Virus record (IMG/VR): IMGVR_UViG_3300046519_000190
Location: 1-64,000 of that record
DNA from: a virus
Strand: one strand, 5' to 3'
Length of the DNA stretch: 64,000 nucleotides
Shown: in pieces, positions 3,893 to 61,585 of the stretch
How the letters are laid out: each line of letters starts with the position of its first letter
Numbering within the stretch: position 1 is the stretch's first letter
Translations under genes and position numbers: made by a program
The notes under the pieces: generated by a model
Databases searched by the model: none
What the model was told of the DNA's origin: nothing
What the model saw: only the letters and a program-made list of their open reading frames with translations

Positions 3893-4110
3893 GAGAACTG
3901 ACCATAGGTTTGATTGCCGGTGCGTTCGAATTCACGGGACAGTCTGATCTTGGCGTACCTGGGAAGGTCGCTGTGCCTGATCCGCATTTCTTTCGTGAAG
4001 GCTTTCTGCTGCTTGTCGGTACGACACAGCTTGCACAGGTGATCGTGTGTGGATTTGATGCCTTTCCCACAGGAACATGGGAGTTTTCCGAGTTTGGTTG
4101 CTTTGCTCAT
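3889..4110 (-). CDS. Zinc-ribbon-like small protein with C-terminal tail (73 aa)
   Basis: N-terminal CSCG (about residues 12-15) and CKLC (about 26-29) could bind one zinc. The rest is basic and helical. It ends TYGQFS, matching the shared C-terminal pattern aromatic-Gly-x-Phe-(Ala/Ser). ATGA overlaps on both sides place it in a coupled three-gene unit. Nucleic-acid binding is plausible but unproven. Confidence 0.75.
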   Translation of the reverse strand: MSKATKLGKLPCSCGKGIKSTHDHLCKLCRTDKQQKAFTKEMRIRHSDLPRYAKIRLSREFERTGNQTYGQFS

Positions 4111-4454
4111 GCGAACGTACCGTAATTCTGTGGTTTGGGGGTGGCTTTCTTTTCAGGCTTTGGATACCGGATTTTCTGCTGCTTGGCTTCTTCTCTCTTG
4201 AGCCAGTCTTCTTCTACGTGCATGGTTCGATCTGGAAACACAGCCTCTACGAAACCGGTGCTGTGAGGGTTGTTCTTGATGTGCTTGCGGTAGTGGGTCA
4301 GAGCTGTGCTTGGGAATACCGTTCTGGCAATGAACGTTGCTGGGCCACGACCGTCTTCGCTTGCACCGCCGTAGAGAAGGAACCAGGGTGCGTTTGTGAT
4401 TACCTCACGCTTGACGATGCGGTATTCAGTTTCTGTGGTGGTAATGGGCTTCAT
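4107..4454 (-). CDS. Hypothetical protein with C-terminal YGTFA tail (115 aa)
   Basis: Not recognised. The N-terminal 80 residues look like a compact alpha/beta domain, followed by a Lys/Pro-rich linker (PKPEKKATPKPQ) and the tail NYGTFA. The flexible linker before the tail suggests the tail is exposed. The stop overlaps the next start (GCATGA), but the codons before it (TTC GCA) do not form a Shine-Dalgarno site, so the tail is not a by-product of ribosome-binding needs. Confidence 0.8.
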   Translation of the reverse strand: MKPITTTETEYRIVKREVITNAPWFLLYGGASEDGRGPATFIARTVFPSTALTHYRKHIKNNPHSTGFVEAVFPDRTMHVEEDWLKREEAKQQKIRYPKPEKKATPKPQNYGTFA

Positions 4455-4495: not shown

Positions 4496-4539
4496 AAAAC
4501 TCAAACCATCGGGCATCATGCAGAATGGTTTGAGTTTTT
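4496..4539 (-). terminator. Terminator hairpin, both strands
   Basis: Fourteen-pair stem AAAACTCAAACCAT / ATGGTTTGAGTTTT with a 15-base loop. T-runs flank it on both strands. On the minus strand it ends the transcript of the gene at 4563-4856. Confidence 0.8.
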
Positions 4540-6612: not shown

Positions 6613-6842
6613 TACAAACCCCCAAAGTGATCGATAGCCTCGTCAACACACGGGCCTTGTAGACGGTGACGACCAACTTCTTTGTTGTCGAAAACGCAGA
6701 CCCACTCCCAGGTTGTGACGTCTTTGCTGTGGAGGTCCAACTTGTTGGGCAGCTTCTCGAAGGTGCAGCCAATCTCTTCGAGAGCCTTTTTGCGTGCGAA
6801 ACCGCTGATTGGCTTCGCAGTCACAGATTTTACAGCGGTCAT
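6612..6842 (-). CDS. Hypothetical protein (76 aa)
   Basis: Not recognised. A basic N-terminus (VKSVTAKPISGFARKKALE), then a segment with TTWEWVCVFDNKEVGRHRL, ending DHFGGL, which is weakly reminiscent of the shared tail. Coupled to both neighbours by overlapping start and stop codons. Confidence 0.75.
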   Translation of the reverse strand: MTAVKSVTAKPISGFARKKALEEIGCTFEKLPNKLDLHSKDVTTWEWVCVFDNKEVGRHRLQGPCVDEAIDHFGGL

Positions 6843-7111
6843 GCGTAAATGCCTCCGAACAGGTGAAACACAAGATTTTCGAGCATGAAAGTACCCAGAT
6901 GTGGCGCAGCAGCGACCGGGTGCTTGCTCATGTCGTGGCCAGTGCCAAATACACCGAAAGCTTGGTGACGCTCGGGCTGATCGGTGTCAACACGAACCCA
7001 CATTTGTGGCTGACCACGTTGAACATCGACATGAATGACTTTGGCGCCGGCGGGCAAGCGCACGGTGAAGTCTTCGGTCATCTGAACGGGGTATTTGAAA
7101 ATGGTGATCAT
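6839..7111 (-). CDS. DUF7352-like protein (90 aa)
   Basis: The opening (MITIFKYPVQMTEDFTVRLP, then AGAKVIHVDVQ and QPQMWVRVD) matches a small all-beta family common in phages, annotated as DUF7352; its function is unknown. It ends LFGGIYA, a variant of the Gly-x-aromatic-Ala tail. The start overlaps the upstream stop (ATGA), and downstream it is coupled to the gene at 6612. Confidence 0.7.
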   Translation of the reverse strand: MITIFKYPVQMTEDFTVRLPAGAKVIHVDVQRGQPQMWVRVDTDQPERHQAFGVFGTGHDMSKHPVAAAPHLGTFMLENLVFHLFGGIYA

Positions 7112-7260
7112 CGCGCTCTCCCCATTTGCTCGCTACCAACTTGAGCGAGCAAAGCGATAGCCTGGCTCAGTTTTTCGTTTCCAGGCTCAGCATGCTTGGT
7201 GCTGGTGCGAATCAGCGTGGCGAGCTGGATCAGCTTGTCGGCTTGTTGCGCGACGGTCAT
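7108..7260 (-). CDS. Hypothetical small helical protein (50 aa)
   Basis: Not recognised. The start MTVAQQ at 7260 overlaps the upstream stop (ATGA); an ATG two codons earlier is an alternative. Ala/Leu/Gln-rich, predicted as two helices. It is coupled to the DUF7352-like gene downstream. Confidence 0.65.
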   Translation of the reverse strand: MTVAQQADKLIQLATLIRTSTKHAEPGNEKLSQAIALLAQVGSEQMGRAR

Positions 7261-7691
7261 GGCCATTTGAGAACAAACTCCGATTTCATAGCTAGAGCTG
7301 GGAAGAAGGCTTTGAGCAAGCGTTCTTCGATATGGTTGCGAATGAACATCGTGGCTTCGAGCAGCGAGTCGAACGACTCGGTGGTGACGAGGCATTCATC
7401 AGGGTCTTCGATGCTGCTGTTTTGCACGTATGCGGTGTAGAACTCTTGATTGATGGTGCTCTTGCCACCTACAGTCATGATGCACGCCGAGTTGTGAACG
7501 ATGCTGTACATGAGGCCGTCTGCCTCGAACTGGCTGATCATGCCTGGCGATTTGGCTTTCTGCTCTTCGTTGAAGCGCTCGTTTTCGAGCATGCGGGCAC
7601 CCATACTGCCGGGCTTGAACTGGCCAAGCTCAGGGTTTGCGGCAACTGCGGCCGCGATTAGGTTGTTACTTGCATCATGATTGCTGGGCAT
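7257..7691 (-). CDS. Hypothetical protein (144 aa)
   Basis: Not recognised. The start at 7691 (MPSNHD) is set by the GAGAGAGC site upstream. That site lies inside one arm of a 14-bp inverted repeat (7697-7756), so its translation may be controlled by RNA folding. The protein has a helical, Ala-rich N-terminus and an alpha/beta middle. First gene of a coupled run ending at 6415. Confidence 0.75.
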   Translation of the reverse strand: MPSNHDASNNLIAAAVAANPELGQFKPGSMGARMLENERFNEEQKAKSPGMISQFEADGLMYSIVHNSACIMTVGGKSTINQEFYTAYVQNSSIEDPDECLVTTESFDSLLEATMFIRNHIEERLLKAFFPALAMKSEFVLKWP

Positions 7692-7696
7692 GGTGA

Positions 7697-7756
7697 ATGC
7701 TCTCTCGTAAGTCGCAGCGTTCATCGCTGCTGTACTTGCATTTTACGAGAGAGCAT
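7697..7756 (-). promoter_or_regulatory. Long leader hairpin covering a ribosome binding site
   Basis: Arms 7697-7710 and 7743-7756 are complementary over 14 pairs without mismatch; inside is a second six-pair hairpin (7714-7719 with 7725-7730). On the minus-strand RNA the 3' arm contains GAGAGAGC, the ribosome binding site of the gene starting at 7691. This could be a translational switch, a protein-binding operator or a read-through silencer. Confidence 0.6.
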
Positions 7757-7782
7757 CTGGGGAGTGTTGGCGCTTGCAAGCG

Positions 7783-8187
7783 TTATTGCGATTCGCCGCG
7801 CAGCAGTTTGTCGAAGGCGCCAGTGCCCTTGAGCATGGCCAACTGCTCGGGAGTTGTGGAGTAGTCAGACTCTTCGATCATCTGGCTCATGATCTTGGCA
7901 AAGGTGAACAACATGAGCTGGGAGATAACCGGCACACCGAACATCGGCTCTTTCTTCAAGTGCTCACCGATGATCCGGGTCTGCTCGATGCCGATTTCGT
8001 GAATCTCTTTGCGAACGGCAGCAGCTTCGACGGTCGTCAGGTTCGTCAGAATCTTGGCCATCAAAGCGTTGGTGTGATTGCTGGCGATCACAGCTTGCTC
8101 GACAACTTGTTGCAGGCTTTCAAGCGTGGGGAAAGCTTGTCTGAAAATTGCCGGCACTTCGGTTACAACGTCGACTACCTTCTTCAT
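7783..8187 (-). CDS. Hypothetical helical protein (134 aa)
   Basis: Not recognised. Predicted almost entirely helical, with a hydrophobic stretch (VPVISQLMLFTFAKIMSQMI) that may be a buried helix or membrane-interacting segment. Its ATG overlaps the upstream stop by one base (TGATG). Confidence 0.75.
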   Translation of the reverse strand: MKKVVDVVTEVPAIFRQAFPTLESLQQVVEQAVIASNHTNALMAKILTNLTTVEAAAVRKEIHEIGIEQTRIIGEHLKKEPMFGVPVISQLMLFTFAKIMSQMIEESDYSTTPEQLAMLKGTGAFDKLLRGESQ

Positions 8188-8762: not shown

Positions 8763-8861
8763 GTGTACAACTCTCGTTTATGTTCGTGTGCAAGCATTTT
8801 ATCGATATCAGAATGGCAGTGCGTGGCTACCAGCATGGGTGCCAGTAGCACGCAGAGGCTG

Positions 8862-29676: not shown

Positions 29677-29985
29677 TCACTCGTTTTCGTATGGTTCATC
29701 GGATAGTTCACGCAGGCGCTGACGCTCAAGGTAATCGTCAGGGTCTTCGTATTGGGATGGGCGTTCTTCATCGGCCCGTGTGCCTTCGCTGTGCAAAGGA
29801 GGGTGTTCGTATTTTTCACGGGCAGCGTGATGATGCGGATATTCATAGCTAACGCTGTCGTGTCTGTGCTCGCGTTCATCGCTGTGACGCTCTGATGCGA
29901 ACGCTGACGCTGTTAGCGCTGCACTTGCTGCGATGATCAGCACGACGATAGAAACAGTCTGCATCGCTCTTATATGCGCTCTCAT
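29677..29985 (-). CDS. Exported His/Glu-rich small protein (102 aa)
   Basis: The start at 29985 (MRAHIRAM) follows GAGGGATTTTTC. A signal-peptide-like segment (VSIVVLIIAASAALTASAFA) is followed by a highly charged region rich in His, Glu and Arg (ERHSDEREHRHDS; YPHHHAAREKYEHPP), probably disordered and able to bind metals. Not recognised. Confidence 0.7.
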   Translation of the reverse strand: MRAHIRAMQTVSIVVLIIAASAALTASAFASERHSDEREHRHDSVSYEYPHHHAAREKYEHPPLHSEGTRADEERPSQYEDPDDYLERQRLRELSDEPYENE

Positions 29986-30100
29986 GAAAAATCCCTCGCT
30001 CATGCGTTTAATAGTCTTGATCACTATGTCACGCAGAACGAGGGATTGTGTGGGCTTGTGTAAGGGCAGCTTTGGAGCCGCTAAATTTTCGGCGGCGGGA

Positions 30101-61526: not shown

Positions 61527-61566
61527 AAAGAAAAAGACTCAGACGCGAGTATGCACGTCTGAGTCT
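61527..61566 (-). terminator. Rho-independent terminator
   Basis: AGACTCAGACG and CGTCTGAGTCT, eleven pairs, ten-base loop, followed on the minus strand by TTTTTCTTT. Ends the helicase unit. Confidence 0.9.
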
Positions 61567-61585
61567 GGTGTGTTGCGGGCTACGA

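Follow-up and report, generated by a model that had tools for sequence, protein, structure and literature searches.

A hairpin over a Shine-Dalgarno sequence, with a predicted promoter at its 5′ arm, as a probable read-through switch in a relative of the Nickievirus phages

What does a long and perfect stem do when one of its arms carries the ribosome binding site of the gene that follows? This question is raised by positions 7697-7756 of a virus record of 110,851 bases (IMG/VR record IMGVR_UViG_3300046519_000190), the nearest named relatives of which are the Nickievirus phages of Pseudomonas syringae; the stretch analysed, the first 64,000 bases of the record, is referred to as the window. 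The genes around the hairpin are oriented on the minus strand, which corresponds to the mRNA, and the hairpin is housed in a gap of 91 nt that separates gene 7783-8187, the would-be source of read-through RNA, from gene 7257-7691 (144 amino acids, ATG at 7691), the candidate regulated gene. No family match and no endonuclease domain were found for the 144-aa protein, no homologues of the two proteins flanking the gap were found among viral contigs, and no terminator was seen between the two genes in a local scan. An earlier note on this DNA had proposed that the hairpin silences read-through translation and opens under some signal, or that it is a binding site for a protein dimer at the DNA level.

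The two arms, of 14 nt each (7697-7710 and 7743-7756), are 100% complementary and separated by 32 nt. In the mRNA, the 5′ arm of the outer stem, or anti-SD arm, is ATGCTCTCTCGTAA (7743-7756, minus strand), and the SD-bearing 3′ arm is TTACGAGAGAGCAT (7697-7710, minus strand), both arms being supported by the inverted repeat, the fold and covariation in six phages. Between them lies an inner 6-bp hairpin, with GCAGCG on the 5′ side (7730-7725; fold, alignment and two compensatory pairs) and CGCTGC on the 3′ side (7719-7714; fold, alignment and covariation), which confirms the arrangement of perfect arms around a smaller hairpin that had been described from the sequence. The Shine-Dalgarno sequence, GAGAGAG, is at 7700-7706 on the minus strand, 8 nt ahead of the ATG at 7691, with an anti-SD pairing of -3.5 kcal/mol, and it lies within the 3′ arm as previously claimed; SDs of the ACGAGAG type are recurrent in these phages. 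The gene start was likewise upheld at 7691 rather than 7724, because the in-frame ATG at 7724, from which a longer ORF of 155 aa would begin, is missing in the relatives. A leader ORF starting at the ATG of TAAAATG was also rejected: its frame and length vary among the phages, no SD precedes it, and it begins upstream of the inferred transcription start given below.

The stem is well outside chance expectation, in line with the earlier note: the Markov control gave an expectation of 0.01 perfect inverted repeats (at least 14 nt, loop of at most 60 nt) per window, against two found, and the minus-strand RNA fold of the hairpin (-38.0 kcal/mol, z = -4.5) was equalled by none of 200 shuffles. The sole second perfect 14-nt inverted repeat with a short loop in the window, AAAACTCAAACCAT/ATGGTTTGAGTTTT at 4496-4538, is probably a terminator ahead of gene 4107-4454. 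Unlike an intrinsic terminator, in which a GC-rich stem precedes a run of U in the mRNA, the hairpin at 7697-7756 has no U-tract and is followed by TCACCATG. The Rfam covariance models gave no gathering-level match within the window, and a riboswitch or other known RNA family was rejected for the hairpin on this ground.

The 91-nt gap was found at the equivalent site in all five relatives (phiK7B1, ZY21, nickie, Nican01 and hairong), and the nested hairpin is common to all of them. The gap is more conserved than the adjoining genes, with a BLAST identity of 82-85% compared to about 70-77% for matching pieces of the wider region. The sequence of the outer stem varies among the present phage, the phiK7B1 group, Nican01 and hairong, with paired changes, and three versions of the inner stem (GCAGC, GCGAC and GCAAC) are seen, each with a matching partner strand. 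Over 19 pairs in six phages, 99.1% of the cells were paired and 6 of the 19 pairs were changed on both sides; these changes fall in both stems, a result matched by 0 of 500 shuffles, and controls in which the stems were slid gave 0-2. The covariation in relatives that the earlier note had proposed as a check is thus present, and the support that it gives, coming from six related sequences, is good but not overwhelming. The sequence of the loop between the stems is unconserved except for the -10 element described below.

The first gene behind the hairpin differs between phages: that of the present phage resembles those of nickie and Nican01 (31%), phiK7B1 and ZY21 encode another protein there, and in hairong the hairpin is followed by a DUF7352 gene, the counterpart of which lies slightly farther along the operon in the window (6839-7111). 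The conservation of the hairpin element thus does not depend on the first gene. A covariance model search yielded one strong copy of the element per genome and only weak further copies.

A promoter class of these phages bears on how the gene could be expressed. Alignment of the other nickie gaps by the best -10 alone, with the hairpin locus omitted, gave C at -27/-26 and at -37, and an expectation maximisation matrix was built from four relatives, again with the hairpin locus omitted from training. The derived class is GCCA-N6-CCC-N13-TATAAT followed by G, with GCCA at -38 to -35 and CCC at -28 to -26. At the hairpin, the held-out matrix predicts a -10 of TAAAAT (TATAAT in hairong) at 7740-7745 on the minus strand (17.0 bits, the eighth-best score in the genome), a CCC block at 7759-7761 and a GCCA block at 7768-7771. 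The predicted -10 begins within the 5′ arm, sharing its final 3 nt, and then runs into the loop, and it remains TAWAAT across the phages although largely unpaired; from its spacing, transcription would start in the loop at about 7733 (7731-7735). The held-out scores at this locus were 18.3 bits in nickie, 24.6 in hairong, 17.7 in Nican01 and 18.3 in phiK7B1. In 3 of 20 genome-sized trials, the best site of a Markov sequence reached 17 bits, and therefore the case for the promoter depends on where it lies in the gap and on the relatives; the position in the 91-nt gap and the scores in four relatives make a chance origin of the match appear unlikely. Sites above 12 bits in the present genome numbered 24 on the minus strand and 2 on the plus strand, against 2.25 for both strands together in the Markov control, a strand bias that is not a fully independent test because other sites of this genome have homologues in the training set.

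The local scan revealed no canonical sigma70 promoter, and both strands of the present genome were likewise without one at the level of 10 of 12 matches. In the phage, no homologue of a sigma factor and no match to MotA (PF09158) or AsiA (PF09010) were found; a search for a T7-type polymerase recovered none of its controls and carries no information either way. The place of the box near -30 is similar to that in the T4-type middle promoter (MotA/AsiA), but its sequence is dissimilar, and promoters go unmentioned in two genome papers on Nickievirus. Next to the predicted promoter, the motif AACGCTTGCAA (7774-7784, minus strand) recurs at other early-region gaps and is missing from hairong at the hairpin locus. 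Minus-strand copies are near 105224, 6403 and 1484, and the motif occurs in early-region gaps of all the phages; it is possibly the binding site of a regulator.

The cost of opening the region from the SD to the AUG was calculated as 20.1 kcal/mol in the read-through RNA of the window and 5.1 kcal/mol in the promoter-started RNA. The corresponding read-through and short-RNA values were 14.7 and 1.1 kcal/mol in nickie, 22.9 and 4.9 in Nican01, and 14.8 and 2.4 in phiK7B1, with a smaller gain in hairong (13.7 and 9.3 kcal/mol). The predicted short RNA from about 7733 begins with ACA, followed by the inner hairpin and then an unpaired SD, and it cannot form the outer stem because the 5′ arm is missing. 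This accessibility difference was computed here, as were the arms, the covariation and the promoter-like sequence. The expectation is therefore that the read-through RNA leaves the gene silent and that its own promoter makes it active.

We consider it probable that the locus is a cis-acting switch on the minus strand, in which the hairpin hides the SD in read-through RNA and an internal promoter frees the gene. Read-through RNA from upstream would carry both arms and fold into the 14-bp hairpin, hiding the SD, and the gene at 7691 would go untranslated from it. A phage-specific promoter whose -10 sits at the apex of this arm on the 5′ side would start an RNA at about 7733 that, having no 5′ arm, could not form the outer stem and would be translated. 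Read-through, the activity of the promoter and this change in translation are inferred here. The inner stem, which would be preceded by just 3 nt in the short RNA, may guard that RNA against decay, and its covariation would be sensible for a 5′-terminal stem. The next upstream promoter (-10 at 8796-8801, minus strand, 22.8 bits), from which read-through could come, belongs to the same class and sits 1 kb upstream of the hairpin; therefore, read-through and internal starts may coincide, and the role of the switch may lie in promoter-specific dosage or insulation and not in an early-to-late change. The silencing of read-through translation that the earlier note had suggested is thus supported, as a prediction, by the covariation in six phages and the accessibility calculation. 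The earlier note had counted a promoter within the 5′ arm, with no read-through, against the idea; such a promoter is predicted exactly there, and together with read-through it would complete a switch of the T4 type and not overturn it. The earlier interpretation is partly supported and right in its core, the sequestration of the SD in read-through RNA, the opening being most likely due to an internal promoter and not to a signal.

The highest-scoring promoter in the genome, at 23.5 bits, has its -10 at 30028, within the loop of a second hairpin (29982-30060, minus strand), which covers the SD of a gene with its ATG at 29985 that precedes thyA in relatives. This layout is present in five phages (the present phage, nickie, Nican01, phiK7B1 and hairong) and is re-paired in the four relatives, with folds at z from -5.8 to -7.0 and an accessibility difference as at the 7691 gene. 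In hairong (OM223115.1, 87443-87520), a predicted promoter with its -10 at 87469 is within an 11-bp stem, the 3′ arm of which includes the following gene's start codon. In the window, at 61540-61570 on the minus strand, a predicted -10, CATACT, is in the loop of a stem of 10-13 bp followed by a T-tract, so that the site around 61553 looks like a fused terminator and promoter. In several further members of the class, the -10 is flanked by short inverted arms that have no contact with an SD. A stem enclosing the promoter (p ≤ 0.05) was found at 7 of 24 sites in the present genome and 11 of 26 in nickie, where about one would be expected. A wider proposal, which we put forward tentatively and hold to be possible and no better than that, is that Nickievirus uses an undescribed promoter class in the non-structural half of the genome, many members being built inside hairpins that form in read-through RNA only and act as insulators, with each operon expressed solely from its own start. 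If this is true, the promoter-hairpins vary, some hiding an SD or start codon, some being terminator-like and some having short stems, and an insulating hairpin promoter would permit gene swaps behind it.

Other hairpins and repeats were met during the analysis. A flexible-pattern search of viral contigs returned chiefly one unrelated cluster. An unrelated 103-kb viral contig (L016, 9075-9114, minus strand) has the element CCTCTCGT-ataatg...-ACGAGAGG, with TATAAT in its loop, over the SD of an ORF resembling an HNH endonuclease gene; this element may be convergent or due to chance. In nickie (NC_042091.1, 38837-39024), a 12-bp hairpin lies over the SD of a holin gene with a GTG start, and no such hairpin was evident upstream of the present phage's homologue near 66358. 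Another inverted repeat with an A/T-rich loop, (C)AACTCTTCCCT...AGGGAAGAGTTG, occurs at two or more places per genome, including 6007 (minus) and 64242 (plus) of the present genome, 41052-41212 of nickie, 90426 of Nican01 and 97650 of phiK7B1.

A nested, covarying RNA structure over an SD would also fit an RNA switch (riboswitch, thermosensor or translational operator) that responds to a signal or protein by opening in the read-through RNA. However, the Rfam search was negative, the loop is conserved at the -10 only, and a stem of 13-14 bp with 14-23 kcal/mol would be hard to open; the opening signal of the earlier note is also unneeded, as the internal promoter would give an RNA that never forms the hairpin. 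We regard such a switch as quite unlikely. The inverted repeat could instead act as DNA, as a dimer binding site or a cruciform overlapping the -10, and the class promoters with a -10 between short arms that do not reach an SD are in keeping with this. As the main reading it is unsupported and, to us, very improbable: the nested inner stem covaries too, the arms change in pairs, the SD coincides with the 3′ arm, and the arm sequences differ between loci, which argues against a common operator.

It is also conceivable that the hairpin is mainly a 3′-end or processing signal of the upstream mRNA, either a Rho-dependent end trimmed to the stem or an RNase III site, with the SD overlap being incidental. 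The upstream sequence is C-rich and G-poor, and some hairpins of the class, such as that around 61553, resemble intrinsic terminators. Against this, the U-tract is missing at 7697-7756, the C blocks stand at a constant 13 nt from the -10, as for a promoter element, and the 3′ arm coincides with an SD both here and at 30028, so that we give this explanation little credence.

For gene e (lysozyme), soc and gene 49 of phage T4, RNA from an upstream promoter sequesters the SD, and RNA from an internal late promoter in or close to the 5′ strand lacks that strand (PMC3014915). An RBS hairpin and an internal promoter similarly limit the read-through expression of I-TevI, I-TevII, I-TevIII, segB and Aeh1 mobE (PMC2988022). 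As in T4 e, soc, 49 and I-TevI, the SD in the present case is, by computation, in a stable helix of the read-through RNA, and the promoter predicted with the held-out matrix is placed, in the present phage and four relatives, so that its RNA would lack the 5′ strand. In contrast, T4 uses the late promoter TATAAATA with gp55, and the Nickievirus box is GCCA-N6-CCC-N13-TATAAT, which makes the element a functional analogue and not a homologue; Nickievirus is a siphovirus genus unrelated to T4, and experimental proof exists for T4 alone. Unlike the homing-endonuclease hairpins, the present one precedes a gene without an endonuclease domain, and the first gene varies while the hairpin is kept. T4-type phages also have PeSL cassettes (promoter early plus stem-loop), in which a promoter and a stem-loop that serves as a terminator form a compact unit lying between variable genes. 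The Nickievirus hairpin differs from these in covering an SD and in missing a U-tract. A cassette that is retained in front of changing genes is indicative of a portable control unit. The comparison suggests that the logic known from T4, in which an RBS hairpin mutes read-through RNA and an internal promoter frees the gene, arose separately in an unrelated genus, and the analysis yields a testable promoter class for Nickievirus.
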